The translations under genes were made by a program, and so were the position numbers. Positions 6,983-63,711 of a stretch of 64,000 bases of DNA are shown one piece after another (positions within the stretch are counted from its first letter, which is position 1; each line of letters opens with the position of its first letter). Under the pieces are notes generated by a model. It was not told where the DNA came from. It saw only the letters and a program-made list of their open reading frames with translations, and did not search any database. Source of the DNA: Gammaproteobacteria bacterium 42_54_T18 (GTDB lineage Bacteria; Pseudomonadota; Gammaproteobacteria; Pseudomonadales; Ketobacteraceae); NCBI GenBank assembly GCA_002163245.1, contig MAAL01000145.1, positions 1 to 64,000 on the forward strand, read 5' to 3'.

Positions 6983-6999
6983 AACTACACGAGTAACCT

Positions 7000-10853: not shown

Positions 10854-10882
10854 ACTATAAAGAGTTCGCGCCTCAATGTCGA
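10854..10882 (-). promoter_or_regulatory. Likely sigma-70 promoter of ybiT
   Basis: Minus-strand TCGACA (10877-10882), a 17-base spacer and TATAGT (10854-10859). Five of six bases match consensus in both hexamers. It lies about 75 bases upstream of the ybiT ATG and after the thiL stop, indicating that ybiT is transcribed separately from the rib-nusB-thiL operon. Confidence 0.65.
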
Positions 10883-10924
10883 GCAGAAAACTGTACAGGA
10901 AATGTACGAAAAAAGAAAAACAGG

Positions 10925-11911
10925 TTAAAAGTGCTGGTATCCTAAACTGACAAGCTCAACACAGCCGCCCTCCTCAACAATGGAGGCACCCTCAACGACC
11001 TTACCTATTCGTGTAAGTATGACGCTCTGCTCAACAGCTAACGCCTCAACAGATTCCCTTTTGCTCTCTGGCACGGTAAAGCACAACTCATAATCATCAC
11101 CAGCATTGCAAGCTAACAGCCTTTTCTCTCGCTCGCTTTTATCGCCAAATAGGTCGCTCTTCATAACGGCGTCAGATAAAGGAACCAACTCTAGCTTCAA
11201 GCTAGCCCCCGCTTTACTTGCACACAACACGTGCTCAAGATCTGCTAACAAACCATCAGAAATATCAATACAGCTTGTTGCTATACCGCGCAAGGCCAAC
11301 CCCAAGCCAAGACGAGGTTGCGGCTGATTAAATCGCTGCAATGCATCTAGAAAACATCGATCAAAACGTTTGTCATCAGGTGCGTCAAAACCAGACAGCG
11401 CCATATTTAAGCCCGCCGCTCCATGGCCTATCACACCAGAAACATACACATCATCACCAACACTGGCCCCGTGCCGAGTTAACGCCTTACCTATTGGCAC
11501 ATCACCGGTGACATGCACTGAAATGGATAATGGGCCCTTTGTTGTATCTCCACCTACAAGCTGAATGCCGGTTTGTTGAACCAGCTTAGCCATACCGTTG
11601 CAGAAACCCTCAATCCATTGTGTATCTCTATCAGGCAGCGTAATGCAAAGTGTAAACCAAAGAGGGTAAGCCCCCATGGCTGCCAAATCGCTTAGATTCA
11701 CTGCCAGGGATTTAAAACCAATATCAAATGCAGAGGTGCTTTCTGGAAAATGTACGCCAGCAATCAATGTATCTGTAGAAACGACTAATTGAGAATTAGC
11801 AGGCGGATTTAAGATTGCGCAATCATCGCCAATACCAAGCTCAACGCCCCGCCCCGCGCCTTTTGATGCAAGGGTAGAGAAGTAAGCTTGGATCAGTTCA
11901 AATTCATTCAC
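10925..11911 (-). CDS. thiL: Thiamine-monophosphate kinase
   Basis: A 328-residue ThiL that phosphorylates thiamine monophosphate to the active cofactor thiamine diphosphate. The N terminus (FELIQAYF) and motifs GIGDDCAIL, VSTDTLIAGVHF, VGGDTTKG and CIDISDGLLADL are all in place; GDDYELCF lies near the C terminus. It is 12 bases after nusB and is the last gene of the rib-nusB-thiL operon. Confidence 0.97.
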   Translation of the reverse strand: MNEFELIQAYFSTLASKGAGRGVELGIGDDCAILNPPANSQLVVSTDTLIAGVHFPESTSAFDIGFKSLAVNLSDLAAMGAYPLWFTLCITLPDRDTQWIEGFCNGMAKLVQQTGIQLVGGDTTKGPLSISVHVTGDVPIGKALTRHGASVGDDVYVSGVIGHGAAGLNMALSGFDAPDDKRFDRCFLDALQRFNQPQPRLGLGLALRGIATSCIDISDGLLADLEHVLCASKAGASLKLELVPLSDAVMKSDLFGDKSEREKRLLACNAGDDYELCFTVPESKRESVEALAVEQSVILTRIGKVVEGASIVEEGGCVELVSLGYQHF

Positions 11912-38117: not shown

Positions 38118-40622
38118 TTACTTCTTGGTGCTCGGAGCGGCTTTTGATTTAGCGATACGCTTCGCCGCTTTTTTCTTTACGGCTTTCTTCGGAGACTTTT
38201 TCTTTGCTGAGCCCGCACTGGCCTTAGGCTTAGCGCTAGGTTTCTTTTTAGTCGCAGCAGCGCCTTTTTCAGACACATTCTTTTTCGATGTAGCCTTACT
38301 TTTACTAACCGTTTTTTTACCAGACGATTTTTTACGCTTACCAGATGGCTTGTCGCTACCGGAACCTTTTGCCCAGCGATTTTTCCGGCCACCTTCAATG
38401 AGTTCAAAATCAATTTTCCGATCATCTAGATCAACTTTCGCCACTCGAACAGAAACAGAGTCCCCAAGCCCGTAAATAATGCCAGTCTTCTCGCCAGACA
38501 AGCGGTGACGAACATCATCAAAGTGATAATAATCACTGCTCAGTGCACTGATATGCACCAGCCCTTCAACGTATACTTCATCCAATTCAACAAAAAAGCC
38601 GAAATTGGTAACCGCAGTGATGATACCGGTAAATTCATCACCTTCTTTATCACGCATGTATTCACACTTCAGCCATCCCACCACATCACGCGTAGCATCA
38701 TCAGCCCTGCGCTCTGTCATTGAGCAATGCTCACCAAGCTCAATCATCTGCGCATCAGTATAAGGAAGCCAACGTTTATCTAGAACAGGTGCGCCCTCAA
38801 CTCGCTTAACATTGTTACTGTCTCTGCCAGAGCGAATCTCGTAACGTAACGCCCTGTGTACAAGCAAATCTGGATAACGACGAATCGGCGAGGTAAAGTG
38901 AGCATACGCTGTGTATGCCAAACCAAAGTGCCCAATATTATCTGGTGCATATACAGCTTGATTCATTGAACGCAACAATACCGTCTGAATTAAATCCGCA
39001 TCAGGGCGACCTTGAATTTGTTCCAATACGTTTTGATAATCTGATGGTTTTGGCTTTTTGCGACCTGCGAATTCAATCCCTAATTCTTTCAGAAATGCCC
39101 TAAGCTTTTCTAATTTCTTATCTTTAGGGACATCATGATTACGATACAATGACGGCAGCGCATGCTTCTCTAAGAACCGAGCTGTCGCAACGTTCGCACA
39201 CAACATACACTCTTCAATTAAGCGGTGAGCATCATTTCTTTGTACAGGTACAATTTTTTCTATCTTACGATCTTCACCAAACACAATGCGTGTTTCGGTA
39301 GTTTCAAAATCAATAGCACCACGAGAAGTTCTCTGCTCTCGCAACTTTAGATACAGCTGATTGAGCTCCTCAACTACCGGAATCACATCCACGTGATCTT
39401 TACGCACCTGGGCAGCCAATTCTGACGTTGGATCATTTAATACCGCGCCAACCTTAGTATAAGTTAAGCGCGCATGAGACCGAATGACACCCTCATAAAA
39501 GCAATAACGACTCACTTTACCCGCTGCGCTCACACTCATCTCACACACCATAACGAGGCGATCAACATGAGGATTAAGAGAACATAAACCATTCGATAAG
39601 CTTTCAGGCAGCATCGGCACAACGTTTTCTGGGAAATAAACAGAATTCCCGCGCTTGTGGGCCTCTAGATCAAGCGGCTCTCCCGGATGTACATAATGAG
39701 AAACATCAGCAATCGCCACATACAAGCGCCAACCACCTTTAGGTTTCTTCTCACAGTAAACCGCATCATCGAAGTCTCGAGCGTCTTCTCCGTCAATGGT
39801 AACTAATGGCAGTTTACGCAAATCAATACGCTTGGAGGCATCCGCTTCGGACACGTCTCCCCCCCATTGTTGAGCAGCGCTTGTAACCTCATGTGGCCAT
39901 TCATTTGGAATATCATGATTACGAATAGCAACATCGATTTCCATACCGGGCGCCATATGCTCACCCAATACCTCAACAATTTCACCATGAGCTTGATGCC
40001 GCTTCGTCGGCTGCTCAATAATATTCACTACCACAAACTGGCCATTTTTCGCACCGTTAACAGCATCTGCTTGAACCAAAACATCTTGATTCACTCGCTT
40101 ATTTTCCGGCACTACAAAACAAATACTATTTTCTTTAAAGAAACGCCCAACCAGCTGCTGCGTATTACGCTCAAGCACCTCAACAATCGCGGCTTCTTTT
40201 TTGCCTTTCCAGCCCTCTTTGGATTCGCGAGCAACAACTCGGTCCCCATCAAAAACTAAACGCATTTGACGGGCACTCAGAAAAAGGTCCTTTTCCCCTA
40301 CATCTGGCTTTAGAAAACCAAAGCCGTCTTTATGGCCAATCACAACACCCGTGATCAGATCCATTTTGTCTAAAATGCCATAAGCTCCTCGACGGGTACT
40401 CATTAGCTGACCGTCACGCTCCATAGCGCGAAGTCGGCGGCGCACACCTTCAACGCCATCATCTTCATATATATCAAATGCCATACACACTTGTCGGTGT
40501 GTCATCGGCCCATCAGCTTCTTCTAGCAGAGAGGCAATATAGTCTCTACTAGGCACTGGGTTTTCGTATTTTTCCGCTTCTTGATCAGCGTTTGGGTCTT
40601 TTTTGGGGGACCACTTTGCCAT
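38118..40622 (-). CDS. rnr: Ribonuclease R
   Basis: An 834-residue 3'-to-5' exoribonuclease that degrades structured RNA. Order: helix-turn-helix-like N terminus (about 25-85), cold-shock domains (about 85-250), RNB catalytic domain with DGEDARDFDDAVYCE near 275-289, S1 domain (about 650-735) and a Lys/Ser/Ala-rich basic tail from about 755 to the end. The basic tail is typical but longer than average. No tRNA gene lies upstream, unlike in Pseudomonas. Confidence 0.97.
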   Translation of the reverse strand: MAKWSPKKDPNADQEAEKYENPVPSRDYIASLLEEADGPMTHRQVCMAFDIYEDDGVEGVRRRLRAMERDGQLMSTRRGAYGILDKMDLITGVVIGHKDGFGFLKPDVGEKDLFLSARQMRLVFDGDRVVARESKEGWKGKKEAAIVEVLERNTQQLVGRFFKENSICFVVPENKRVNQDVLVQADAVNGAKNGQFVVVNIIEQPTKRHQAHGEIVEVLGEHMAPGMEIDVAIRNHDIPNEWPHEVTSAAQQWGGDVSEADASKRIDLRKLPLVTIDGEDARDFDDAVYCEKKPKGGWRLYVAIADVSHYVHPGEPLDLEAHKRGNSVYFPENVVPMLPESLSNGLCSLNPHVDRLVMVCEMSVSAAGKVSRYCFYEGVIRSHARLTYTKVGAVLNDPTSELAAQVRKDHVDVIPVVEELNQLYLKLREQRTSRGAIDFETTETRIVFGEDRKIEKIVPVQRNDAHRLIEECMLCANVATARFLEKHALPSLYRNHDVPKDKKLEKLRAFLKELGIEFAGRKKPKPSDYQNVLEQIQGRPDADLIQTVLLRSMNQAVYAPDNIGHFGLAYTAYAHFTSPIRRYPDLLVHRALRYEIRSGRDSNNVKRVEGAPVLDKRWLPYTDAQMIELGEHCSMTERRADDATRDVVGWLKCEYMRDKEGDEFTGIITAVTNFGFFVELDEVYVEGLVHISALSSDYYHFDDVRHRLSGEKTGIIYGLGDSVSVRVAKVDLDDRKIDFELIEGGRKNRWAKGSGSDKPSGKRKKSSGKKTVSKSKATSKKNVSEKGAAATKKKPSAKPKASAGSAKKKSPKKAVKKKAAKRIAKSKAAPSTKK

Positions 40623-40816: not shown

Positions 40817-43800
40817 CTAGTCACTTTGCTTCCCGGCATAATCCTCCAAAGCTCTCAGCTGGCCCGATATTTCTTTCATTTTGTCGTGAGTACGCAAATC
40901 AATATCCAGTTTTTTATCCATACTACGCACCAGCGGGAAGATACTGTGCTCTATTGTATCCGCCAATACCGTCAATACCTTATCCATACCTGGCACAGGT
41001 TGATTCACAACATTCACCGTTGGCTGATTACCAGCCATCACTTTCGTCAACTGCTCTAACTGTGTCGTTAACTGAGTAGTGAGCTCGACAGCTAACTCGC
41101 CCACATCAGGTGCTACCTTCTGTGCTCCTTGTTCATCCTGCTTCTGCTGTAACTCTTTCTGTTGCTTCAACTCGACTTTTCGATATGCAATGAGAGTATT
41201 ATGCTCTTCTACTCGTTGCGCATCAGCAGCCGCAGCAGACTCACTTAAACCTTGCACACCTTCGACCAAGTCAACTAGCTGGGCTATGACTTTTCCACCA
41301 ACATCATCTCCGCCCATGGCTTTATTTCTCAAGAAGTCTCGCTTAATCTGCTCCCAGCGCTCAGATTGCTCGCCTGTCATATTGCCACGTAATTCAGCTA
41401 ATTTAAGCAGGTTATCTTCCGCACCAGAGGTTAACAATTGCGCCTCACCCAGATAATGATCCTCAATCATCTGCATTAGCTCTTTCTCATTCATTACCGC
41501 AGAGACCTTCTCGGTCATCTTATTCATATTTCGGTAACTACCCTGTAGTTTAAACGCGGGCTCCGTTCGATAAGTATCATTTTGGGCGGCAGAAATAATA
41601 TATTGCTGATTAATTTTGAGAATGACTTCTTGAATCACAAACATCTTACGTAAAATATCGGTAATCTCATTGATCTCAGCGCCACTATAGGTATGACTTA
41701 AATCCGTGTTCGCGATATTTCCCCCTTTAGCCATATCAACTAACTTATAAACATCAGACATCTCCCTGACGGCCAAAGGTGCTAAAACAGGATTTGAAGT
41801 GAGTGAGTTTTCAACATAACTTAACGCAAATTGCTCATCCATTCCTCCAAGTATATCACCCAAGTTATAAATATCGGCTCGGTTGGCTAACATGTCAGGT
41901 ATTTTAAAGGCTTCACCTGATTCCGTATAAGGGTTACCCGCCATAACCACGCAAAATTTACGGCCTCGCATATCATAGGTTTTGGTATTCCCTTTCCAGA
42001 TACCTTCAATACGTCGCGTACCATCACACAGTGAAATAAACTTCTGCAAAAATTCTGGGTGTGTATGCTGAATATCATCCAGATACAACATCACATTGTT
42101 ACCCATTTCTAACGCAAGGTTTAACTTCAACAATTCCTGCGCTGCAGTGGCATTCGGCGCTTGTGATGGATCTAGCGATAACACGTCATGGCCTAGAGAA
42201 GGGCAATTGATTTTCATAAAAATCAAACCCAAACGGTTAGCTACATACTCCATTAATGTTGTCTTACCGTAACCCGGAGGTGATATCATCATCAACAGAC
42301 CCATAAGGTCTGAGCGCCTATCTTTTCCAACCGTACCCATTTGTTTTGCTAAATTATCGCCTATAAGTGGCAAATAGGATTCATTAATGAGGCGATTACG
42401 CACAAACGAACTTAACGGCCGCGCCTTAAACTCTTCCAATCGAAGATTTTTACGCTCATTGGTAATAATATCTTGCCGTGTTTTTAAGTATTGATGGTAC
42501 GCCGGAATCACTTCTTTATTATGCCTCTCTAAGCGTAACAAAAAGCTATCTAAAGAAAATGTCAGACTATGATCTGAAATATTCCCATGACCACCCAATA
42601 ATCCTGAAACCGTTAACTCCACATCGACCGACATAACACGACGCGGCAATAGGTCTGCAACATTAACAAGTGCTACGGCTTCGGGAATATAACGCTGTAA
42701 ATGATTTAGTGATTTATTTTCAACAAGTGCATCAAGCCACGCTGCACTTAACTGCCATCGCTGCGCTGGAGAATCTTTCATTTTTTGCAATGTAGATTGA
42801 AACTGCTCCCATGTAGCTCCCGTCAATGAACGCTTCAGCTCATCAACAAGTGTGCCGGCATATTTACTTTGCACAAATTCTATTGTGCTTCGCCCTAATT
42901 CTTCTACCAAATAATTGGCGGCGCGTTCAATATCCAATATAGATACAGGTATAGCGTTCTGAGTAATAAAATAACGTAAACCCCGACTAATTTCTTCCGC
43001 CAACTGCACAGATGCATCAACCGATGCAAATACCTGCTGCATATGATTAGCCGATTGTGCCCGCTCACACCATGTATCTTTCGCTATGACCCAATCTTGC
43101 CACGATTCATCGAGCGGTTTTACAACAGACTTAAGTTCTGCATTATCCTTAAGCTCCACATTATCCATAAGTGCAGCCCAATACACTTGCGCCAATGCGC
43201 GACTCATCGGGTCATAACGCAGCAAATCAGCTTGCTCCAATGCAGGCACTATTTCAGCTAGAATACGCGTAGCATCATGGTCATGCACACCTTTTTCATA
43301 ACCTTCTTTATAACGCGGCGATGCAAAATCTCTAACCAGATCACCTAGTGTTTCTTCAGTAACAGCCGCCGACAACACACCCATCGTCAGACCATCTTCT
43401 GACAATTCTGCAGCATTCAATATTAATGCCGCCAAATATTCCGAACGATAAACCTGCGGAGTTTCTGACTCCAAAGACATATCCCAATAGTCTTTTAAAT
43501 CCATCAATGCATCATTTTCGATAGGTTCAAAATAATTAGTTCCTGTCAGATGAACGTTTAACACCCCATTGCGAGGAATAATCGTTAAATCTAACTCTTG
43601 CGTGTTCACAGAGAACTTATGGCGAGGCCCAAGCTTAATAACATTGCCTCCGTCTTCATAAATATCTGATTTATCACGTAACGAACGTAAGGCCTGCTCC
43701 TTAATCGCCTTAAATCGTGATTCGATATCATCCGCCTTAATCGCAGAATCTAAATCCCGTAATTTCTCCACCAACTCGCGGGTTTTCATTACCAAGGCGT

Positions 43801-46222
43801 CGGAGGCAAAATAGGTATTTAGCTCGTCACCCTCTGTAAACTTCAGCGAGCGTTTTTCAATACTTGATAATATTCGATCACCGGCATCTGCTATAGATTG
43901 CGCCTTACGCTGGCGTTCATCGAGCAATTTCTGTTTATGGCTTTCAAAAGATTCATAAATTTCTTCACGTTTATCCATAATATCCGCAAGAAATTGATCA
44001 AACTCACTAAACTGGCTTTCTAGCTCCTCTAACTGCACTAACAACCGAGACAATTGCTCATCACAGCGCTCTGGCGATGTCGACAAACCTAATGCATTGG
44101 TAATGCTTTGTGAAAACAGTTTAAACTGCGCACCAAACTGAGCTATCGCCTCCGATGAGCCTAAATCTTTTTGTTTATTCTTAGCCCTGGCTTTGCTTTG
44201 GTTTAATTTGGAGTAAACCTGTGAGATTGCATCGATAATACGTGTTCGAACCGTCGCATCAGAAACTTTCAAAGTCCCCATCAATTCAGAAAGCAAATCT
44301 AAACCTGACGCTGTTTTTTCGATATTCTCAATTAACGGGTTAAGTTCAGCAATCGTAACTGCCGATTCAACCTCATGGTTGATTTGATCCATTTTCTCCA
44401 GATAAGGAGACAATGCATCCTCACCCATTAAAAATTCTACCGTTTTCTCACTTAATGCTGACTCAACATCAGTAAGCTCAGCATTCAAAGCTTCGATACG
44501 AGCCGTATCGATATAACGATGATCTCTTATTGTAACAAGATGCCCCCGCTGTCTTCGCAATCGCCCTAGCGCATCTACATATTCCTCAGCCATCCCCCAA
44601 CTATCAGGTCGAATAGCCTGCACAATAGATTTTTGCTCAGACTCCGCTTCTGCCATTGTTTTTAATGACTGTTGGCGAATACTCTGTACTTTTTCAAATT
44701 CATCAATCACTAATTCAGCGGTGCCAGAGATAGATTTTAAAATCTCATCAACCCCATCTACCGCCTCATCTTCCACCCAATAGTGAGCATCAAATATTTT
44801 AGCCGCCGAATGACTTAACTCTTCATACAGCGTTGATGAAACAGATTGATTCCCAATCATTCTGCAAACACTGTACAAATCCGACACACCACGAACTAAC
44901 TCAGCGTTACCCACCTTGCCATAAAACGTTTGGCTTTCTGCTGCCTTACTTGCAAACTCAGCACTTAGATAAGGTGTATTCCAAATCTGCATCGGATGAA
45001 CTCGAGTCGCCTCCTCTTCTGCTGAGAAAATAATAATTGAACCATCTTCTGCCAACGCATAACCGTGGCCATAGATAGGGTTCTGCAATTCCTTTTCAAT
45101 AAGATTGTAACCAAACAACCCAACAGCGCCTTCTTCAGGGTCATAAAACACATACAAAACATCTTCACCATTAGGTGAGCGTATCATGCGTTTAAATTTA
45201 AGCCCCTCGAACTCTTCATCAAAAGTCTTATATTCACCGGTCTGTAAATAAAAACCGCCGGGGAATATCACCCCATGATCCTCAGGCAACTGCACACAAG
45301 ATTGGCCAATCGCATCGATACGTATAACCGTTTGTGTCATTTTATTAAAAACAAGATAACGCCACTCAGTTTCTCGATATGGCCGGATCTTTAAAAGAAT
45401 TAACTGCCCAACAGGGGCATAAAATATATCGGCATCATCAATGGACTGAGTTTTATCTTCAACATCTTCGCTGAAGATGCCAAGCCCATCTTCCGTATTG
45501 TTTTCAACCTTAACCGTCAAATCGCCATTAATAGTTTCAACAAAGACGCTATCTAGAATATTAACGTGGGCGTGGCGACCATGAACAGTATCTTCACGAT
45601 TAGTTTCTACCCATTCAAAATCATAAGATGGAGGGAGCTGAATGTCGCGTTCGCCACGATTATCAATATAGGATATATCATTGCCATCAGCAGATACTGA
45701 CCATCGAAAAACACGGAGATCTTCTAATCGCTCACCTATTTGAAAACCAGCCAGGAGCTTTCCATGTTTAATGGTCAGCTCGACAAGTTTTGTGTGTTTG
45801 TAATATCGATACAACTCATCAAAGTCATTAACAAAGCTTGTTTCCGCTAAGAAAGATCCCTCCAACGATGCCGAAACCATCTCATGGCCAGCCTCTGTTT
45901 CCTGCACATCAAAAAGCGCAAAAACATCTTCAACTTTGGTTTCTTTTTTTAGCCCAATAAAAACGTTGTAACCAAAAAGCAGATGCCCTCCAACTTGCAC
46001 AATATCTCTGGCGATACAGTTATTCTCGGTACGGACACGTACCCTAGCAACAACACCCATATCAGAACCACCAAACTCAGCAATTCTCGCTTCATTTAAT
46101 GCCTGCGTTTTCTGACTTAGCTGACGACCTTGCTCAACCAAACGCTTACGAATAATGTCGTATGCGCCGCCTTCAGCAACTGCGCTATCAACAATATCGG
46201 CTGATGAGTTTTGCTCTGTCAT
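40817..46222 (-). CDS. Giant DUF3686-like AAA ATPase linked to flotillin
   Basis: An 1801-residue protein from ATG 46222, which has AAGGA seven bases upstream. N-terminal ~480 residues are strand-rich with repeated propeller-like segments (YLVFNKMTQTVIRID, LYVFYDPEEGAVGLFGYN). Residues about 490-800 are strongly coiled-coil. A helical middle part precedes the AAA motor: Walker A SPPGYGKTTL near 1310, Walker B MLYLDDIQH near 1375 and a sensor segment VMAGNPYTESGEAFKIP near 1425. The C-terminal ~300 residues are helical. No signal peptide or membrane helix. It resembles proteins annotated as DNA-repair ATPase (DUF3686), which occur beside flotillin and YqiJ genes; a repair role is unproven. Confidence 0.8.
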   Translation of the reverse strand: MTEQNSSADIVDSAVAEGGAYDIIRKRLVEQGRQLSQKTQALNEARIAEFGGSDMGVVARVRVRTENNCIARDIVQVGGHLLFGYNVFIGLKKETKVEDVFALFDVQETEAGHEMVSASLEGSFLAETSFVNDFDELYRYYKHTKLVELTIKHGKLLAGFQIGERLEDLRVFRWSVSADGNDISYIDNRGERDIQLPPSYDFEWVETNREDTVHGRHAHVNILDSVFVETINGDLTVKVENNTEDGLGIFSEDVEDKTQSIDDADIFYAPVGQLILLKIRPYRETEWRYLVFNKMTQTVIRIDAIGQSCVQLPEDHGVIFPGGFYLQTGEYKTFDEEFEGLKFKRMIRSPNGEDVLYVFYDPEEGAVGLFGYNLIEKELQNPIYGHGYALAEDGSIIIFSAEEEATRVHPMQIWNTPYLSAEFASKAAESQTFYGKVGNAELVRGVSDLYSVCRMIGNQSVSSTLYEELSHSAAKIFDAHYWVEDEAVDGVDEILKSISGTAELVIDEFEKVQSIRQQSLKTMAEAESEQKSIVQAIRPDSWGMAEEYVDALGRLRRQRGHLVTIRDHRYIDTARIEALNAELTDVESALSEKTVEFLMGEDALSPYLEKMDQINHEVESAVTIAELNPLIENIEKTASGLDLLSELMGTLKVSDATVRTRIIDAISQVYSKLNQSKARAKNKQKDLGSSEAIAQFGAQFKLFSQSITNALGLSTSPERCDEQLSRLLVQLEELESQFSEFDQFLADIMDKREEIYESFESHKQKLLDERQRKAQSIADAGDRILSSIEKRSLKFTEGDELNTYFASDALVMKTRELVEKLRDLDSAIKADDIESRFKAIKEQALRSLRDKSDIYEDGGNVIKLGPRHKFSVNTQELDLTIIPRNGVLNVHLTGTNYFEPIENDALMDLKDYWDMSLESETPQVYRSEYLAALILNAAELSEDGLTMGVLSAAVTEETLGDLVRDFASPRYKEGYEKGVHDHDATRILAEIVPALEQADLLRYDPMSRALAQVYWAALMDNVELKDNAELKSVVKPLDESWQDWVIAKDTWCERAQSANHMQQVFASVDASVQLAEEISRGLRYFITQNAIPVSILDIERAANYLVEELGRSTIEFVQSKYAGTLVDELKRSLTGATWEQFQSTLQKMKDSPAQRWQLSAAWLDALVENKSLNHLQRYIPEAVALVNVADLLPRRVMSVDVELTVSGLLGGHGNISDHSLTFSLDSFLLRLERHNKEVIPAYHQYLKTRQDIITNERKNLRLEEFKARPLSSFVRNRLINESYLPLIGDNLAKQMGTVGKDRRSDLMGLLMMISPPGYGKTTLMEYVANRLGLIFMKINCPSLGHDVLSLDPSQAPNATAAQELLKLNLALEMGNNVMLYLDDIQHTHPEFLQKFISLCDGTRRIEGIWKGNTKTYDMRGRKFCVVMAGNPYTESGEAFKIPDMLANRADIYNLGDILGGMDEQFALSYVENSLTSNPVLAPLAVREMSDVYKLVDMAKGGNIANTDLSHTYSGAEINEITDILRKMFVIQEVILKINQQYIISAAQNDTYRTEPAFKLQGSYRNMNKMTEKVSAVMNEKELMQMIEDHYLGEAQLLTSGAEDNLLKLAELRGNMTGEQSERWEQIKRDFLRNKAMGGDDVGGKVIAQLVDLVEGVQGLSESAAAADAQRVEEHNTLIAYRKVELKQQKELQQKQDEQGAQKVAPDVGELAVELTTQLTTQLEQLTKVMAGNQPTVNVVNQPVPGMDKVLTVLADTIEHSIFPLVRSMDKKLDIDLRTHDKMKEISGQLRALEDYAGKQSD

Positions 46223-46250
46223 AGAGAAATCCTTGTGAGAGAATAACATT

Positions 46251-46280
46251 CCTGTATTCAATCTATCGATTGAATACAGG
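46251..46280. promoter_or_regulatory. 13-bp perfect hairpin in the leader of the AAA ATPase gene
   Basis: CCTGTATTCAATC and GATTGAATACAGG with a 4-base loop, 28 bases upstream of the ATPase ATG. No T run follows on the minus strand, so a leader structure or a DNA-binding site is more likely than a terminator. Confidence 0.5.
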
Positions 46281-46305
46281 ACGAAGCCTTATCGGTTAAA
46301 AATTC

Positions 46306-46335
46306 GATTAAAAGGTCAGTCTAAAAGCACTGACC
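46306..46335 (-). terminator. Possible terminator or attenuator after the flotillin gene
   Basis: On the minus strand GGTCAGT and ACTGACC form a 7-bp stem with an 8-base loop (46314-46335) followed by TTTT. It lies 22 bases after the flotillin stop and would reduce transcription into the ATPase gene, setting a ratio between the two products. Confidence 0.5.
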
Positions 46336-46357
46336 AATCAGGAAGGCGTAGCCTTGC

Positions 46358-48403
46358 CTAAGCATCGACGTCATCTTTAACAGAGCTTGGCTTGCCTTCA
46401 ATAACTCGGTTCACCAATGCGGAAATTGTCCCACTTTTATCCGCTAAACCGTCTATCGCTTTACCAATGGATAACGACTTAGCAAAGTTATTAAAGAAGT
46501 GCTCTTCACCGCCCACAATGTCAATCTTCGCTTTCTGCAAGGCAACTGCCAATACTTCTGCGTTTTCACGTGCAATATCCTTACCTGCATCAATGCCTGC
46601 CAACGCTTCTTTCAGAGCTGTCTCCAGCCCCATACGGAATTCCTCATGCTCACGAGCTTCATCACTCATAGTACCCATTGCTTGGAACTTATCCAACAAG
46701 CCATCAGCTTCAGCTTTAAATTGCTCACGAGTAACTTCAGCGCCAGCCAAACCAACTTGCTGCTTCGCTTTCGCTTCAGCCTCACCTTTAGCGGCAATAA
46801 CTGTCGCTTCCGATGAACCTTGTGCTGCAATAACTTCAGCCGTCGCGTTACCCGTGTCACGATGTGCTTTCGCTTCAGCATCACCTTGAGCCTGGATTAC
46901 ATTGGCCTCTGCAAGCCCTTTATCTCTATGGGCATTCGCATCCGCTTCCCCCTTCGCCTGAATCACATTAGCTTCAGCAACGCCCTCTTTCTCCAACGCC
47001 TCTGCTTTAGCTGCCTGTACTTTTGCATCAGCTAAGCCTGGCGCGGCACGCTCAGCCTGAGTAGCTTCCGCCAACTTCTTCTTCGCATCAGCTTCTTTAG
47101 CTGCCGCCTCTAAATCTGCCTGCGCCATCACAGTTACTTCAACTGCACGATGCTTTGCAGCTTCTTCATCAGCCTCTGCCGCCTTAACTTGCTGTACTTT
47201 AGCCTCTTCTGCTTTTGCTTCTGCGGCAAGCACCTGAACCTGCTTCTCACGATCAGCCTCAGAGACTTCACGCACTTCCTTTATCTTTTCTTCTTCAATA
47301 GCAACGGTTTTATCTACCGTAACGCGTTCACGGATAACGTTAGCAATCTCTTTTTTCTCAATCTCAACCGCTTTTTCTGCTTCAATCTTTTGCAGCTCAA
47401 CCTCACGTTCACGAGAAACAATTTCAAGATCACGAGCACGAGTTACCTTTTCCTCTTCAATCGCAACCGCACGCTGCCTATTTTGTTCCGCGACTTCAAT
47501 TTCCCGCTGCTGATTTTCTTTTTGTACCTGTAAATCCTGCTCGACTTGAATAGTGGTTGCTTCTGCCTTTCTACGCTCTTCTTCCTGAACCTTTTTGGTT
47601 TCCGCCTCTTCACGCGCACGAATCGTTGCAATTTCACGTTCCTGCTTGGCTTCAGCATCCGCTTGTTGACGCTTTAAGGACAACATCGCTTCTACCGTTT
47701 CAACGTCTTTTTTCTTTATGGCTAGTTCCTCATCACGTTCAAGCACATTAGTTCGTACATTTTGCTCTGCCGTTAATGCTGTGATCTTTTTAATACCTTC
47801 GGCATCCAAAATATTACTAGGATCCAGAGACATTTTAGGAGTTTGCTCAAGATAATCGATGGCGACATCTTCCAAAATATAACCGTTCAAATCATCTCCA
47901 ATGACTTCAATAATTTTCTCTCGAAATTCCTGTCGATTTTCAAAAAGTTTTACAAATTCAATTTGCTTACCAACGGTTTTTAACGCTTCAGAGAATTTCG
48001 CAGCAAAAAGCTCGTACACAGCCTCTCTATCTGACGCTCGACTTGCACCGATAGATTTTGCCACCTTCAACACATCTACAGCTGTTTCATTTACTCGTAA
48101 ATAAAATGCCACCGTAATATCTGCCCGCATATTATCCAAACAAATCAAGCCATCCTTTCCTCGTCGATCAACTTCAAGTGTGATCAATGAAACTTTCATC
48201 AATTCCTTTTTATGTATGATGGGATACACCAAGGCTCCCGTAAAATAAACCTTAGGGGTAGTTGAGGTATCATTGACAATAAGGGCCGTACCCTGCTCCA
48301 CTTTAAAATAAAATGCTTTAACAATTGCCGCAAAACCCAACACAGCAATAACCACTGCACCTATAAAAAATAATATAGGCATAACCACTGATAAATCAGC
48401 CAT
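46358..48403 (-). CDS. YqiK-like flotillin (SPFH/band 7 protein)
   Basis: A 681-residue membrane-associated scaffold protein. ATG 48403 has GGAG eight bases upstream; an in-frame GTG at 48412 is less likely. An N-terminal membrane helix (about 8-30) is followed by the SPFH domain (about 30-200; VYFTGALVYPIIHKKELMKVS) and a very long coiled coil (about 205-560) rich in Glu, Lys, Ala. Repeats of about 22 residues with the pattern AEANVIQA-GxAxAxAHRD occupy about 475-545, as in flotillins. The C-terminal part is helical. Longer than E. coli YqiK (about 550). It lies between a YqiJ-like gene and the giant ATPase gene. Confidence 0.9.
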   Translation of the reverse strand: MADLSVVMPILFFIGAVVIAVLGFAAIVKAFYFKVEQGTALIVNDTSTTPKVYFTGALVYPIIHKKELMKVSLITLEVDRRGKDGLICLDNMRADITVAFYLRVNETAVDVLKVAKSIGASRASDREAVYELFAAKFSEALKTVGKQIEFVKLFENRQEFREKIIEVIGDDLNGYILEDVAIDYLEQTPKMSLDPSNILDAEGIKKITALTAEQNVRTNVLERDEELAIKKKDVETVEAMLSLKRQQADAEAKQEREIATIRAREEAETKKVQEEERRKAEATTIQVEQDLQVQKENQQREIEVAEQNRQRAVAIEEEKVTRARDLEIVSREREVELQKIEAEKAVEIEKKEIANVIRERVTVDKTVAIEEEKIKEVREVSEADREKQVQVLAAEAKAEEAKVQQVKAAEADEEAAKHRAVEVTVMAQADLEAAAKEADAKKKLAEATQAERAAPGLADAKVQAAKAEALEKEGVAEANVIQAKGEADANAHRDKGLAEANVIQAQGDAEAKAHRDTGNATAEVIAAQGSSEATVIAAKGEAEAKAKQQVGLAGAEVTREQFKAEADGLLDKFQAMGTMSDEAREHEEFRMGLETALKEALAGIDAGKDIARENAEVLAVALQKAKIDIVGGEEHFFNNFAKSLSIGKAIDGLADKSGTISALVNRVIEGKPSSVKDDVDA

Positions 48404-48521
48404 ATCCTTCACTCCATTTCCATTGAATTACATATAACAGTTAACTATTACAAAAAGTCTATTTCAGAAAACACTCTGGATAACACGATGCATTTGTAGG
48501 TTACCAAACAATTACAGCGCG

Positions 48522-49211
48522 TTAGTTTTTAAATTCGTCTTCCGATATAACATTATAAGTATTATTTTCTTTTAGATATTCAAGCAAAACCACTCGATCC
48601 CCTTTCGCAAAAGTAACATCACCAAGGGCCCTTACTTTAAAAATCAACCCCGCACCGCCATCTTCTACAGTAGCTTCGCCAAACCCATTATCAACCCGCA
48701 TCGTACGCACTATAGCTGTCTGCCCTAGCACCTTCTTTTCTGTTTTCTGTTCCAACTTCGCGAACAGGCTGCGAAATGGCTTCACCGCTACTGCAGTCAA
48801 CACTGCAGCCACATATAAGCATCCAGCAATAATCGGTAAACTTACCAAATAACGTAGCACCCCTTCCGGAACCCAATCGAAAAATGCATAAACGATGTAG
48901 TAACACAGAATCCATCCAATTAAAGAAACAAGGGTAATGATAATAGTGACAGGAATACCACTTAACCCCAGCCGCATAATCAACCCTGCAACAACGTCAG
49001 CGCTGGAAATACTGGTATCGGCATTGATATCCATTTTCCCATCAACATCAATGCCATCTAAATCCAACACATCAACATCGATGAATCCCAACGCAGCAAT
49101 ACACCAATACACCATCGATAGCGCTAGAAAAAAAGTAAAGAAAGCCGTCGGAAACGACGCTATGTTCTGATAAAACGGGTCCATCTTGTCAGATAACAAA
49201 ATCGCAAACAC
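48522..49211 (-). CDS. YqiJ-like membrane protein with OB-fold domain
   Basis: A 229-residue inner-membrane protein. Hydrophobic helices at about 18-43, 80-112 and 118-145 are followed by a soluble C-terminal OB-fold-like domain (about 160-229: KKVLGQTAIVRTMRVDNGFGEA, KGDRVVLLEY). This is the YqiJ/DUF1449 and NfeD-like arrangement, and such proteins are encoded next to flotillins. Translation starts at GTG 49211, which has a strong GGAGG five bases upstream. A 27-codon ORF ends in that ribosome site. First gene of the three-gene set with flotillin and the giant ATPase. Confidence 0.85.
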   Translation of the reverse strand: MFAILLSDKMDPFYQNIASFPTAFFTFFLALSMVYWCIAALGFIDVDVLDLDGIDVDGKMDINADTSISSADVVAGLIMRLGLSGIPVTIIITLVSLIGWILCYYIVYAFFDWVPEGVLRYLVSLPIIAGCLYVAAVLTAVAVKPFRSLFAKLEQKTEKKVLGQTAIVRTMRVDNGFGEATVEDGGAGLIFKVRALGDVTFAKGDRVVLLEYLKENNTYNVISEDEFKN

Positions 49212-49213
49212 TA

Positions 49214-49297
49214 TTACCTCCTTATAAAGACCAAAAACCCATCAATACAGCGGCTTACATTTCGCAAAGCCAAACACTCATCCAAAGTGTACCCCAT
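49214..49297 (-). CDS. Possible 27-residue leader ORF
   Basis: A short ORF starting with ATG 49297 (MGYTLDECLALRNV...) whose last codons AGG AGG TAA are themselves the ribosome site of the YqiJ-like gene, so the stop is two bases before its GTG. CAGGAG lies 12 bases upstream of the ATG, rather far. It may couple or attenuate translation of the downstream gene, or be a chance ORF. Confidence 0.3.
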   Translation of the reverse strand: MGYTLDECLALRNVSRCIDGFLVFIRR

Positions 49298-49314
49298 AAA
49301 TGTTGTTAACTCCT

Positions 49315-49345
49315 GGTATATTGGGGCGATTTTGATACTTTTCAA
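49315..49345 (-). promoter_or_regulatory. Weak promoter candidate for the YqiJ-flotillin-ATPase genes
   Basis: Minus-strand TTGAAA (49340-49345) with TATACC (49315-49320) at 19 bases or AATATA at 17 bases. The -35 is good, the -10 poor. Confidence 0.3.
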
Positions 49346-49438
49346 GGGGGAAGTGTACAAATAAACACCTGTAAAGTTAGAGAGCATATCCCGTGAAAGG
49401 TTCCCTCTGGTACAACCCTATCCAGAGAGAGAAAAACA

Positions 49439-49582
49439 TCAAGGGAAACAAATCCCCCCTATAGTACAATCCATAGGGCAGCCAAGGCCGGTACATTCTC
49501 CATCCGCCGAGATAAGCTTACAGCCTCCTAACATAAGCAGAGTGGTTAACACCCCTATTTTAATAGCATGCTTGATTTGCAT
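49439..49582 (-). CDS. Tiny cysteine-rich lipoprotein
   Basis: A 47-residue ORF with a strong ribosome site (AAGGAG six bases upstream of ATG 49582). A basic start (MQIKHAIK) and hydrophobic core end in the lipobox LMLGGC with lipidated Cys21, so the mature peptide is 27 residues. It has four further cysteines (at 30, 35, 39 and 45) and ends ICFP. Lys at +2 suggests outer-membrane sorting. I do not recognise a family; in size it resembles entericidin-type lipoproteins but the Cys pattern differs. It lies between the fabY terminator and the YqiJ-like gene. Confidence 0.7.
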   Translation of the reverse strand: MQIKHAIKIGVLTTLLMLGGCKLISADGECTGLGCPMDCTIGGICFP

Positions 49583-49709: not shown

Positions 49710-51635
49710 CTAGTCAATCATGTCGCTATAAGGATTCGAAAAAGACAAATTCACCGAGCGCTGATACCCTGGCAAGGTGACACCGTCATTCTTGATAACT
49801 ATTTCTGACTCATCGATCATACTTTCTCCAAATTTGTAAATTGGAGCGATCTCTCCACGCTGCGCCGCCATTTCATAGCTCGCTATATTTTCACGCACCT
49901 TTTCTCGTTTTTTATGATATTCAGAAATCACCTCTTTTCCATATCGATTAATTATCATTTTCTCAACAACGGTAGGTGCAATCACACAAGCTGTTGCATT
50001 GTTCCCACCAAAACCTTTACTGTTCAAAAAAGCTACGTCTATGGTTTGCTCGCCTAAACGCATATCTTGTAATGGAAACTGTAATCTATCGGCTTGCACA
50101 TCTTCAGCAATAACTTCTGTCGTTTTAATACCCGGTAAGATGCCATGATGAAAAACGCCTAACGTTGCCATTAACTGATCTGCACTTGCTGGAGCCAAGG
50201 AATGGCCAACATAAGATTTTACCGCAACAATTGGCCACTGTTCGATATCAAACGTTGTTGCAACCTGTTGCAATACATCCGCTTCAGTTGTTCTATTTTT
50301 TGGGGTACTTGATCCGTGCGCTTGAACAAAACTTCGCTGTTTAACCGCATTTTCACCTAACAGTGCCACCGCAGATGCAACGGCCTTTGCCATTGTTATA
50401 TAATTACCAGGGCCCGGTGCTGAAATCGATTTCTTATGGCCATCTGCATTCACAAACACATCCGTAACGGCACCAATAATCTCTGCCCCTAGCTCTAATG
50501 CAAGTGCATCATCCATCAACACAAAATATTGCGAGGACTCTGCCAATGTAAAACCACAGTTATCACCAAAGGGCCGGCTCGCACGCCGATGATCAGGCTG
50601 CTCGGAATTTTCCAGTTTACGCAACTTCTCGTCAGACGCTAACGCCCCCATAGCATGATACCCATCGATCATTTCAGGTGTTACCGGAGCCTCACTATTA
50701 CCCACCAAGACAACGCGACTTCGCCCTGCTTGAATATCAGAAATGGCTATTCGTAAGTTATACAAAAAAGTCGCACAAGCTCCTGTCGTACTCCCCGTAG
50801 TACCAACACTGCCCAACACATAGGCATTGATAAAGTCCGCTGGCATGCTATTCATACCTAGTGCCATTTGTTTTGCCGTCACACGCCCCCCCATTAAAGA
50901 GGACTGCATAAACCCACCGTAACCATGTTCATCGACCTGGCACATTAAACTGCCCGAGTATACAGACACCTCATCTGGGTTAACTTTTTCCATCACCTGC
51001 TGCCAATCAATTCCCATTGAGCGCAATGCATCCGTAGCGCCTAACAACGCCATCTTTAAACCACGAGGGTGGAAGTTAGACCGATAATAAGAACCTGGAT
51101 CAAACCCTGTCGGTAATTGCCCCGCACTGGATACCGGCATTTTTCGGGTACAATCCACTTTGATATTTGCCGTTCCAGCCAAGGCGACTGTGACATGATC
51201 CCCTTCACCACTGTCTTCCACCTGCCACCCCTCTGGCAATGGCTTCGGCAGTTGTTTGCGCCTCACTTGAAAAGATAATGCTCCTGTTTCACTAGGCGAT
51301 AACGAGACAGGTTTATGGGTAGGTACTGCATCCACATCAAAATGATTACTTTCGATACGTCGTACTAACGTCCCTTCTAATACCTCGGATCTATATAAAG
51401 CATCCACATCACCAGCAGATAGCGCAGCGCCTTCAGGGTTGACATAACTCCCGTCTGCCCCACCTTCGCCAACAGATACCAGCTTCATAATAACAGCCAA
51501 GCTAATAACGGTTTCTTGCTGAAGCTTTTTAGGCAGACTGTCAAATACCATGCGACGGTATGCATGATGGAACGAACTGCGCCCTGCTGGGCCAAAACCA
51601 CCAAAACCTACAATAACTGGTAACCGAGTCTTCAC
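49710..51635 (-). CDS. fabY: Beta-ketoacyl-ACP synthase FabY
   Basis: A 641-residue ketoacyl synthase, much longer than FabB or FabF and matching the Pseudomonas FabY type that starts fatty acid synthesis from acetyl-CoA and malonyl-ACP. The active Cys is in TTGACATFL near 283, the His residues in QAHGSSTPKN near 441 and KSYVGHSLAPAS near 476. An N-terminal region of about 190 residues and a C-terminal ~60-residue tail flank the thiolase core. Start is GTG 51635 with AAGGGG nine bases upstream. Divergent from a GlxA-type regulator. Confidence 0.92.
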   Translation of the reverse strand: MKTRLPVIVGFGGFGPAGRSSFHHAYRRMVFDSLPKKLQQETVISLAVIMKLVSVGEGGADGSYVNPEGAALSAGDVDALYRSEVLEGTLVRRIESNHFDVDAVPTHKPVSLSPSETGALSFQVRRKQLPKPLPEGWQVEDSGEGDHVTVALAGTANIKVDCTRKMPVSSAGQLPTGFDPGSYYRSNFHPRGLKMALLGATDALRSMGIDWQQVMEKVNPDEVSVYSGSLMCQVDEHGYGGFMQSSLMGGRVTAKQMALGMNSMPADFINAYVLGSVGTTGSTTGACATFLYNLRIAISDIQAGRSRVVLVGNSEAPVTPEMIDGYHAMGALASDEKLRKLENSEQPDHRRASRPFGDNCGFTLAESSQYFVLMDDALALELGAEIIGAVTDVFVNADGHKKSISAPGPGNYITMAKAVASAVALLGENAVKQRSFVQAHGSSTPKNRTTEADVLQQVATTFDIEQWPIVAVKSYVGHSLAPASADQLMATLGVFHHGILPGIKTTEVIAEDVQADRLQFPLQDMRLGEQTIDVAFLNSKGFGGNNATACVIAPTVVEKMIINRYGKEVISEYHKKREKVRENIASYEMAAQRGEIAPIYKFGESMIDESEIVIKNDGVTLPGYQRSVNLSFSNPYSDMID

Positions 51636-58902: not shown

Positions 58903-60228
<1,326 letters not shown>

Positions 60229-61681: not shown

Positions 61682-62551
61682 TCATTTCGGCTGACTGGTC
61701 ATGTACTCAAAGAAATCGCCTTTGGGCTCAACCACTAACACATCATTTTTATCTTTAAACACGGTACGATAAGACTGCATGCTACGGAAAAAGCCGTAAA
61801 ACTCTTTATTCTTATTGTAAGCATTAGCATAAATAGCTGCCGACTCTGCATCACCGCTACCACGAACAATTTCAGACTCACTAAAAGCAGTTGCCAAAAT
61901 CACCGTACGCTGGCGATCCGCATCTGCTCGTAAACCTTCCGCTTTCTCGTTACCTTGAGAGCGATGCTCACGAGCTTCCCGCTGCCTCTCGGCTCTCATT
62001 CGCTGATACACCGATCCACTTACACTAGGTGGCAAATCGATACGCTTCACGCGAATATCGATCACCTCAATACCAAACTCTTCTTGGGTTTTAGCGTCAA
62101 CCTCTTGAGTTAACTCAACCATTAAAGACTCACGCTCCCCCGAAACCACATCAAACACGGAGCGCTCACCAAACTTATTACGCAAACCTTCATTCACACG
62201 AGGAGAAATCAACGCTTCAGCTTGAGACTCCATTCCTCCCCCTGTAGAGGTATAAAACTTAGTCACATCAGTAATACGCCACATAACAAAAGAATCTACG
62301 ATTAACCGTTTCTTCTCTTTTGTGAGGTACTCTTCAGGACGTAAGTCACGCGACATGACGCGACCATCAAACAGTCGTGACTCATCCCATGGCAGCTTAG
62401 TATGCAGCCCTGGCTGCAAGTCATCTTGAACAATTTCACCGAAACGCAACAATAAACCACGCTGATGCTGCCCTACCGTGAACAGGCACATGGAGCCAAC
62501 TAACACCACAACCCCAACCAGCAACAAACTGATTAAACTTTTAGTATTCAT
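61682..62551 (-). CDS. hflC: HflC, FtsH modulator
   Basis: A 289-residue SPFH/band 7 protein. The N-terminal membrane helix is at about 5-26. With HflK it forms a large periplasmic cage around FtsH protease and controls degradation of membrane substrates. The core LRFGEIVQDDLQPGLH and the helical segment RQREAREHRSQGNEKAEGLRADADRQR are typical. ATG 62551 overlaps the hflK stop by one base (TAATG); the longer frame to 62566 is rejected. Confidence 0.97.
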   Translation of the reverse strand: MNTKSLISLLLVGVVVLVGSMCLFTVGQHQRGLLLRFGEIVQDDLQPGLHTKLPWDESRLFDGRVMSRDLRPEEYLTKEKKRLIVDSFVMWRITDVTKFYTSTGGGMESQAEALISPRVNEGLRNKFGERSVFDVVSGERESLMVELTQEVDAKTQEEFGIEVIDIRVKRIDLPPSVSGSVYQRMRAERQREAREHRSQGNEKAEGLRADADRQRTVILATAFSESEIVRGSGDAESAAIYANAYNKNKEFYGFFRSMQSYRTVFKDKNDVLVVEPKGDFFEYMTSQPK

Positions 62552-63711
62552 TATCGTGCCTCCCAACGTTTATTCTCACGCACTTGACGCAACCGGTCTA
62601 TACCGCGAAGATCTGAAGAACTACCAGGCTTTACTGCCGACGGCTGTGATGTCACAGCAGGCTGCCTTGTCGACTGTGCAGCAACAGCACCTCCAGCCAT
62701 CATTTTATCCAACGGTAGATACATCATATTGTTTCCACCTTCTACATCAACAATCACCTTAGAGGTATTGGCGTAGACTTGCTCCATTGTTTCCAGATAT
62801 AAACGTCGACGTGTTACTTCAGGCGCCTTGCTATATTCAGTCAGTAGCTTTTCAAATCGAGTTGCTTCACCTGTTGCTCGAGAAACCACCTCAGCTTTGT
62901 ACGCCAGCGCTTCCTCCTTCATACGCTTTGCCTGACCACGAGCTTCAGGAATAATACCGTTAGCATAGGTTTCGGCTTCGTTCTGAACACGCTCTTCATC
63001 TTCTTTCGCTTTGATTACATCATCAAATGCGGCTTTTACTTCATTTGGTGGATGAGCATCCTCAATGTTCACTTTCGTAACAAGCAATCCTGACTTATAA
63101 CGATTTAAATAATCCTGCAACCGGCGCTGCACATCCACCGCCATGATTTTTCGGCCTTCAGTGATCACACTATCCATTTTAGTGCCACCAACTACATGCC
63201 GAAGCGCACTTTCCGTTGAATGACGTAACGCTTCTTGAGGGCTGTTAGACTCCAAAAAGAAATCCGTTGGATTATTCACTTTGTACTGAACAACCAAACC
63301 AATAGATACCAAATTCTGATCTTCCGTTAACATCGTAGCGTCCATGTTAAAGGAGTTAATTTGGATAACATCAATCTTACGAACCGTATCAATGAGCGGT
63401 GGATTCCAATGCAAACCAGCACCAACGGTTTCGTTGAATTCCCCAAAACGTAGAACAACGGCGTTTTCCGCTTGCTCAACGCGATAGAAACCAGCAACAC
63501 CCCATATGATTGACGCAACCACAGCTACCAAAACAATCAGGCCAAAACCACCGCCGCCGCTTTTGTCGCCATTACCGCCACCACCAAGCAAGCCACCGAA
63601 GCGCTCCTGGAGTTTTTTTAATACTTCATCAAGATCAGGGGGCCCCTGATCATTTTTTCCGCGCCAGGGGTCTTGGTTATTATTACCACCGCCAGGTTCA
63701 TTCCAGGCCAT
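62551..63711 (-). CDS. hflK: HflK, FtsH modulator
   Basis: A 386-residue SPFH protein and partner of HflC. The N-terminal region is rich in Gly, Asn and Asp (MAWNEPGGGNNNQDPWRG), then comes a membrane helix (about 56-76), the SPFH domain with VVLRFGEFNETVGAGLHW and the helical region. A Ser/Pro-rich tail ends the protein. It is downstream of hflX and overlaps hflC by one base. Confidence 0.97.
   Translation of the reverse strand: MAWNEPGGGNNNQDPWRGKNDQGPPDLDEVLKKLQERFGGLLGGGGNGDKSGGGGFGLIVLVAVVASIIWGVAGFYRVEQAENAVVLRFGEFNETVGAGLHWNPPLIDTVRKIDVIQINSFNMDATMLTEDQNLVSIGLVVQYKVNNPTDFFLESNSPQEALRHSTESALRHVVGGTKMDSVITEGRKIMAVDVQRRLQDYLNRYKSGLLVTKVNIEDAHPPNEVKAAFDDVIKAKEDEERVQNEAETYANGIIPEARGQAKRMKEEALAYKAEVVSRATGEATRFEKLLTEYSKAPEVTRRRLYLETMEQVYANTSKVIVDVEGGNNMMYLPLDKMMAGGAVAAQSTRQPAVTSQPSAVKPGSSSDLRGIDRLRQVRENKRWEAR

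Follow-up and report, generated by a model that had tools for sequence, protein, structure and literature searches.

A DUF3686/AAA+ ATPase encoded with a flotillin and a YqiJ-like protein in Gammaproteobacteria bacterium 42_54_T18: a candidate motor for flotillin/PspA assemblies

Operons that combine a flotillin with a large AAA+ ATPase have been described before. A CesT/Tir(DUF2170)-PspA-flotillin-YqiJ-AAA+ operon, the ATPase of which carries a propeller and a coiled coil, is reported in PMC11237479, which also names abbreviated operons without PspA as well as a PLD member and names as an unsolved question how assembly is controlled in PspA homologues that have no AAA ATPase associated with them; the main text of that paper does not mention a rhomboid. 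The BAC operon of Pseudomonas aeruginosa has the order DUF2170, PspA, short NfeD and SPFH protein, followed by the annotated ATPase PA14_16190/PA3728 (PMC10948618, PMC2587700, PMC13086221). According to RT-PCR bacA-bacF are co-transcribed as one operon, and in a bacA mutant BacB-BacD, PA14_16190 and PA14_16200 rise together in the proteome (PMC10948618). PA3728 is described as an ATPase (PMC8190622), and a pa3728 insertion mutant used as an unrelated negative control grew well (PMC12599236). In Bacillus subtilis the membrane recruitment of PspA is reported to depend on an SPFH protein (PMC8581546). Our literature search found no paper naming DUF3686 and none joining rhomboid, flotillin, operon and PspA. 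To our knowledge no motor of bacterial flotillins is known besides FtsH, which pairs with the related HflK-HflC.

We analyzed a stretch of 64,000 nt from Gammaproteobacteria bacterium 42_54_T18 (GCA_002163245.1, contig MAAL01000145.1, forward-strand positions 1 to 64,000), called the window throughout. Its open reading frames include one minus-strand block encoding a YqiJ-like membrane protein, a flotillin and a 1801-residue DUF3686/AAA+ ATPase (Table 1), and the open reading frames, Pfam matches and motif positions agree with the gene order and the intact ATPase motifs given in the initial annotation. This arrangement is not new: it is an abbreviated form of the operon type in PMC11237479, with which it shares the flotillin, the YqiJ protein and the propeller/coiled-coil/AAA+ ATPase, whereas DUF2170 and PspA have their place elsewhere in the genome rather than at the window locus. 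The initial annotation, which named the locus the best candidate for an under-described system, had missed the earlier descriptions in PMC11237479 and PMC10948618. By order and annotation the trio would match bacC-bacE of the P. aeruginosa BAC operon, and on the same grounds PA3728 would be a DUF3686 protein.

Table 1. Positions in the window of the trio, the ATPase domains and neighbouring genes.
Feature	Position	Strand	Size or basis
DUF3686/AAA+ ATPase: propeller, coiled coils, AAA+ motor, C-terminal coiled coil	40817..46222	-	1801 aa
WD40-like beta-propeller, ATPase residues 55-417	44972..46060	-	AlphaFold model, structure match
Long helical/coiled-coil section, ATPase residues 491-792, DUF7902 included	43847..44752	-	Pfam, model
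AAA+ domain, ATPase residues 1269-1614	41381..42418	-	structure match, motifs
Flotillin: SPFH/Band_7 domain, long Ala/Glu-rich coiled coil	46358..48403	-	681 aa, Band_7 match
YqiJ-like membrane protein, three hydrophobic segments	48522..49211	-	229 aa, hydropathy scan
Putative lipoprotein, lipobox-like LGGC	49439..49582	-	47 aa
rnr	38118-40622		flank
purA	58903-60195		flank, further off from trio

It had also been suggested that the genes, placed between rnr and purA, were acquired as a unit. Both genes are indeed found on either side of the trio; the interval between them also contains genes for a ketoacyl synthase, an AraC regulator, a GST, an amidohydrolase, a solute-binding protein and an ABC transporter. 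The block is conserved and patchy in its distribution, which hints only weakly at acquisition as a unit because of these other genes and because its G+C content (about 0.43) is only slightly below that of the surroundings. The flank on the purA side also holds a histidyl-tRNA-synthetase-like gene, hflC and hflK, the latter two encoding two further SPFH proteins (61682-63711, minus strand) about 13 kb from the flotillin. The ketoacyl-synthase-like protein (641 aa, 49710-51635, minus strand) scores above the Pfam cut-offs and far below all listed NCBIfam cut-offs, and its gene is kept beside the trio in the loci L023 and L027.

For the flotillin, a match to Band_7 (32.5 bits, cut-off 23.6) is obtained when residues 1-230 are scanned alone, and together with the length of the reading frame this bears out the 681-residue flotillin of the initial annotation; an in-frame GTG at 48412 fits as a start as well. 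The whole protein gives no Pfam match at E 0.01, 30 of 30 members match Band_7 at this E-value, and the flotillin profile has no match to a PDB sequence (E limit 0.01). A hydrophobic segment was found at residues 1-36 by hydropathy, and the coiled coil is read from the Ala/Glu-rich sequence. The YqiJ-like gene probably starts at GTG 49211, since AAGGAGG precedes this codon and L023 and L027, two close relatives, have the same start in their matching open reading frames. Pfam YqiJ_N does not match the window protein but is matched by 5/46 members (best E 6.6e-5), and the YqiJ profile finds no PDB sequence at an E limit of 1. Among related loci, L040 has a second short flotillin-like reading frame of 218 aa (6987-7643, plus strand) between YqiJ and the full flotillin. 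Genes including one for an NYN-domain protein are inserted between flotillin and ATPase in L092 (6527-9968, plus strand), and L091 and L096 likewise have insertions there. In L014 this position is taken by a small protein (10881-11189, minus strand) with sub-threshold EF-hand matches, the cluster of which covers 15 loci by blastp and 26 of the 90 loci by profile (a set including the best 80 of at least 425 relatives).

The small upstream lipoprotein had been counted as part of the locus, which is not the case. Besides the window it is present only in L023, that is at 1 of 89 other ATPase loci (the 90 including the best 80 of at least 425 relatives), and it is missing from L027 despite the same gene order there; it is therefore not part of the system. 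The two copies are 91% identical with 13 synonymous versus 4 non-synonymous codon differences, so that, judged from its codons, the 47-residue lipoprotein appears to be a genuine lineage-specific gene.

To see what accompanies the ATPase we compiled 90 loci, consisting of the window, nine loci from genomes of the class and 80 taken from a collection of genomes. These 80 were retrieved with two motifs that adjoin the ATPase site and are the best 80 of at least 425 relatives, so that all counts favour close relatives. Neighbours were identified by profile search of all open reading frames, and loci with too little flank were left out of the counts that depend on room. In this set, including the best 80 of at least 425 relatives, a flotillin is encoded at 86 and a YqiJ protein at 83 of the 90 loci; where at least 7 kb of upstream sequence is available (n = 81) both occur at 79/81 on the same strand, PspA at 55/81 and DUF2170 at 54/81, and with at least 2.5 kb downstream (n = 80) a rhomboid protease follows within this distance at 29/80, and a PLD-like protein follows at 32/80. 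The two loci without flotillin despite sufficient upstream sequence are L013 and L033, the latter a MAG in which the ATPase is present and no flotillin was found. When loci more than 95% identical are dropped, the corresponding numbers are 69/71 for flotillin and YqiJ each, 46/71 for PspA and DUF2170 each, 21/70 for the rhomboid and 22/70 for the PLD-like protein (again from the set built on the best 80 of at least 425 relatives). The usual gene order is DUF2170, PspA, YqiJ, flotillin, ATPase, rhomboid and PLD, and in 16 loci of this set of best-matching relatives (best 80 of at least 425) the ATPase stop and the rhomboid start share four bases. Had the ATPase usually occurred without flotillin, the tie to flotillin and YqiJ drawn in the initial annotation would have been in doubt; the survey came out the other way, and that the ATPase belongs with flotillin and YqiJ is well supported by these gene neighbourhoods. 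Papers on the BAC operon suggest sigma-54 promoters upstream of such operons. This candidate was rejected, as a strict scan gave 1/81 regions with at least nine matches compared with 1.05% in shuffled sequences (regions from the set built on the best 80 of at least 425 relatives), which is chance level for a consensus with GG and GC demanded. A scan of this kind would miss a non-consensus -12 element, as reported for pspA homologues (PMC2587700).

The link to the flotillin was also seen across whole genomes. We surveyed DUF3686, the flotillin clade, DUF2170 and PspA in the same 369 related gammaproteobacterial genomes and found them in 10, 11, 27 and 86 genomes, respectively; the 10 DUF3686 genomes span eight families, and in a phylum-wide sample DUF3686 is present in 8/398. 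All 10 DUF3686 genomes carry the flotillin clade, DUF2170 and PspA, with hypergeometric p-values of 1e-18, 7e-13 and 3e-7, which are uncorrected for kinship and overstate the association because the genomes are related. The flotillin clade is sharply delimited, with 357-422 bits in its 11 genomes and at most 134 bits in 14 further genomes with a match, all of them devoid of DUF3686. As the rows of the flotillin profile came from ATPase-linked genes, those of 7/10 DUF3686 genomes among them, independent evidence is provided only by G233, G256, G352 and the rarity of the clade in the remaining 359 genomes. Only one of these 359 ATPase-negative genomes, G104, has the clade, and its contig ends inside the flotillin gene. 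In the G233 draft of 520 contigs YqiJ-flotillin lie on C400, the ATPase on C429, PspA on C299 and DUF2170 on C146. Over the 8 kb examined upstream of this ATPase there is no flotillin, and flotillin and ATPase each have other neighbours; for PspA and DUF2170 the draft cannot show whether they are apart.

The DUF2170-PspA pair, part of the same operon in most relatives, had been overlooked in the initial annotation. Both genes are absent from the window by profile and were found on another contig of the same genome (G000:C144), which is why we regard the window as an abbreviated form with its partner module elsewhere; the parts are together in Cellvibrio (L029/L030) and Stutzerimonas (L049) and split in 42_54_T18. 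The run on this contig further includes a spermine-synthase-domain protein, DUF350, a match to DUF4178 slightly below the cut-off and a rhomboid, and it fits the second operon group of PMC11237479. The rhomboid (L021:7810-8388, minus strand), which stands beside this polyamine-type run, belongs to the subfamily found downstream of the ATPase in relatives, in which the GASG and C-terminal His motifs are conserved. A role of the rhomboid as an ATPase-specific partner was rejected, as the subfamily (at least 164 bits, with the rhomboid of the genome itself as a row of the profile) occurs in 3/10 genomes with and 3/11 genomes without the ATPase among 21 genomes. The three ATPase-negative rhomboid genomes all have DUF2170, which is present in 7/11 of the controls, and from this distribution the rhomboid is probably an accessory, perhaps of the DUF2170-PspA side.

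How firmly the PspA module is attached was analyzed in 48 genomes picked by blastp clusters as lacking the full DUF2170-PspA pair beside the ATPase. DUF2170 was found in 35 and PspA in 44 of them. A strict dependence on DUF2170 is therefore rejected, as it is absent from 13/48 genomes checked, and PspA does not seem to be obligatory either, because no PspA was found in the ATPase-bearing Psychrobacter genomes L095 and L097; the same holds for the MAGs L067 and L068, and all four have the flotillin clade. The profile search places the pair beside the ATPase in 13 of the 48 genomes. For the other 35 loci, some cut by contig ends, PspA is somewhere in the genome in 31/35 and DUF2170 in 22/35. These distributions suggest to us a core of three genes to which a PspA module is frequently joined.

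The ATPase is read from an ATG, and an upstream TTG at 46261 fits as well. Pfam assigns DUF3686 (PF12458) to residues 35-481 (672 bits, cut-off 25), DUF7902 to residues 602-685 and AAA to residues 1311-1355; AAA-type families only and no SMC/ABC head domain were found at E 0.01, nor did Pfam find a protease domain or a hydropathy scan a transmembrane segment. In L018 (G139:C42) the ATPase gene has an in-frame TGA and reads as two open reading frames. AlphaFold models were built from 68 sequences for residues 1-860 and 70 sequences for residues 840-1801, with a mean pLDDT of 86.5 and 80.9. The structure prediction of the front part, which the initial annotation had asked for, gave a WD40-like beta-propeller at residues 55-417 with WD40 domains as best matches by Z, for example DCAF1 WD40 with Z 10.2, rmsd 5.8 and 214 residues aligned (VIA). 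The front is thus strand-rich as expected, but instead of extending over about 480 residues it ends near residue 417, followed by helices and coiled coil; the expected coiled coil of about 300 residues is found at residues 491-792. The N-terminal profile has no PDB sequence match (E limit 0.1), and the C-terminal profile has 14 weak matches, mostly AAA+ (best E 0.001).

The motor comprises Walker A (1313-1322), Walker B (1377-1384) with the two Asp D1382 and D1383, sensor-1 Asn1430 as well as Arg1448 and Arg1564. All of them are invariant in 10 sequences found through DUF3686 alone (11 positions checked) and in 90/90 ATPases including the best 80 of at least 425 relatives, the latter result being partly built in, as both motifs used to retrieve these 80 adjoin the ATPase site. 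The best match listed for the AAA+ core is CbbQ (Z 13.2, rmsd 4.6, 243 residues), and NorQ reaches Z 12.6 (rmsd 4.3, 233 residues); CbbQ/NorQ take Z ranks 1-10 (Z 11.3-13.2), followed by midasin/Mdn1 (10.4) and Clp proteins (up to 9.8). MoxR AAA+ proteins are defined by a pre-sensor-1 beta hairpin and a helix-2 insert. The hairpin is present in the model (strands 565-570 and 573-578 before sensor 1), no strands lie within helix 2 and the insert is not evident. With the MoxR-family CbbQ/NorQ as nearest structures the modelled core looks MoxR-like.

From the computed co-inheritance, gene order, invariant motifs and predicted folds we infer docking, remodelling and a stress role, and we consider it probable, with moderate confidence, that the trio is a membrane-stress machine in which a scaffold of flotillin and YqiJ recruits a MoxR-like remodelling motor. 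The scaffold would be formed in the inner membrane by flotillin together with its NfeD/YqiJ-type partner, and the soluble ATPase may dock onto it via its coiled coils, with the WD40-like propeller as putative recognition module. The AAA+ ring could then remodel or disassemble a client held on the scaffold, for which flotillin, PspA and damaged membrane proteins are candidates. The machine would work alongside PspA and the DUF2170 chaperone, which adjoin it in most relatives and are encoded elsewhere in the 42_54_T18 genome. The reading is favoured by the published co-transcription and joint rise of the Bac proteins, the phage-induced rise of PA3728-PA3732 and the SPFH-dependent recruitment of PspA in B. 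subtilis. Points against it are L033 with an ATPase and no flotillin found, G104 with the flotillin clade outside the DUF3686 genomes, the genomes in which DUF2170 or PspA was not found, the good growth of the pa3728 mutant and the helix-2 insert not evident in the model. In a more far-reaching version, which we put forward tentatively and regard as doubtful, the ATPase is a dedicated SPFH/PspA motor, i.e. a propeller-bearing MoxR-type ring on a flotillin cage that disassembles or reloads flotillin and ESCRT-III-like PspA polymers in a Vps4-like role, with the rhomboid as optional partner in an SPFH-rhomboid-AAA+ hub.

The ATPase might also be a dedicated, Vps4-like remodeller that disassembles PspA polymers, the flotillin merely placing it at the membrane. 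The frequent presence of PspA and DUF2170 in the operon (55/81 and 54/81, from the set built on the best 80 of at least 425 relatives), their occurrence in all 10 DUF3686 genomes of the 369 and the recovery of PspA in 31 and DUF2170 in 22 genomes of the 35 loci without both genes nearby favour this explanation, and L095, L097, L067 and L068, having ATPase and flotillin clade with no PspA found, speak against it. Tree distances over 46 loci, taken here with no species-tree control, correlate with r 0.90 for ATPase-flotillin and 0.87 for ATPase-YqiJ but only 0.56 for ATPase-PspA. The alignments contained 67/69 (A2), 69/73 (A3), 29/29 (A4) and 45/62 (A5) slices with the window protein added to each, and the rhomboid alignment (A6) 24/35 rhomboids and that of the own genome. 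The core also looks MoxR-like, and the 50 structures listed by Z do not include Vps4, which may still match at a lower rank; overall we hold a dedicated PspA remodeller to be unlikely. Less likely still are stress genes that are merely co-regulated without physical coupling, the ATPase acting on something else. One operon with shared induction could explain the co-inheritance (PMC10948618), but G233 keeps the parts although flotillin and ATPase are not adjacent, and the flotillin clade is found in just 1/359 ATPase-negative genomes.

A DNA-repair ATPase, as in Pfam and genome annotation, is highly improbable, in agreement with the doubt already expressed in the initial annotation. The label stems from the Pfam family description ('ATPase involved in DNA repair') and from the annotation of PA14_16190 as a predicted DNA-repair ATPase (PMC8855297); in addition RuvB comes first if structures are ranked by Foldseek E-value, and RecJ is encoded about 5 kb downstream in 15 loci. 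However, RuvB is missing from the 50 structures listed by Z, where MoxR proteins lead, no SMC/ABC domain was found by Pfam, and the genes that recur beside the ATPase encode membrane proteins, PspA, rhomboid and PLD. The proximity of RecJ looks like local synteny, because 14 of the 15 loci are from Pseudomonas, Stutzerimonas or Halopseudomonas (the fifteenth is a gammaproteobacterial MAG). An anti-phage defence system is just as hard to credit, as induction of PA3728-PA3732 on phage infection of P. aeruginosa (PMC12041424) and a weak LmuB match in 2/8 ATPases face no PADLOC match for the four window proteins (E 0.1).

Compared with the published operons we have added the genome-wide co-distribution, the case of G233, the MoxR-like assignment and the rhomboid as probable accessory, and we have removed the lipoprotein from the system. 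A large AAA+ protein that is rarely found without one flotillin clade is a concrete motor candidate for flotillin/PspA assembly, and the 'DNA repair' label on the P. aeruginosa gene is put in question.

SPFH protein, rhomboid protease and AAA+ protein also come together in the mitochondrial SLP2-PARL-YME1L hub, but the AAA+ protein of the window is not FtsH-like and the rhomboid appears to be accessory in the bacterial loci. FtsH is a membrane-anchored protease, whereas the window ATPase is soluble and has no protease domain found by Pfam. HflK-HflC with FtsH is likewise an SPFH assembly with a AAA+ machine (PMC13086221). YqiJ-YqiK of enteric bacteria resemble the locus in having an NfeD2-type partner and a flotillin in one operon (PMC2636767), but the window-type flotillin forms a distinct clade according to the bit scores given above. 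Among the MoxR proteins CbbQ and NorQ have a similar AAA+ core; no VWA domain is among the ten recurrent neighbour families annotated at the ATPase loci, and the window ATPase differs in that this core is fused to a predicted propeller and coiled coils.
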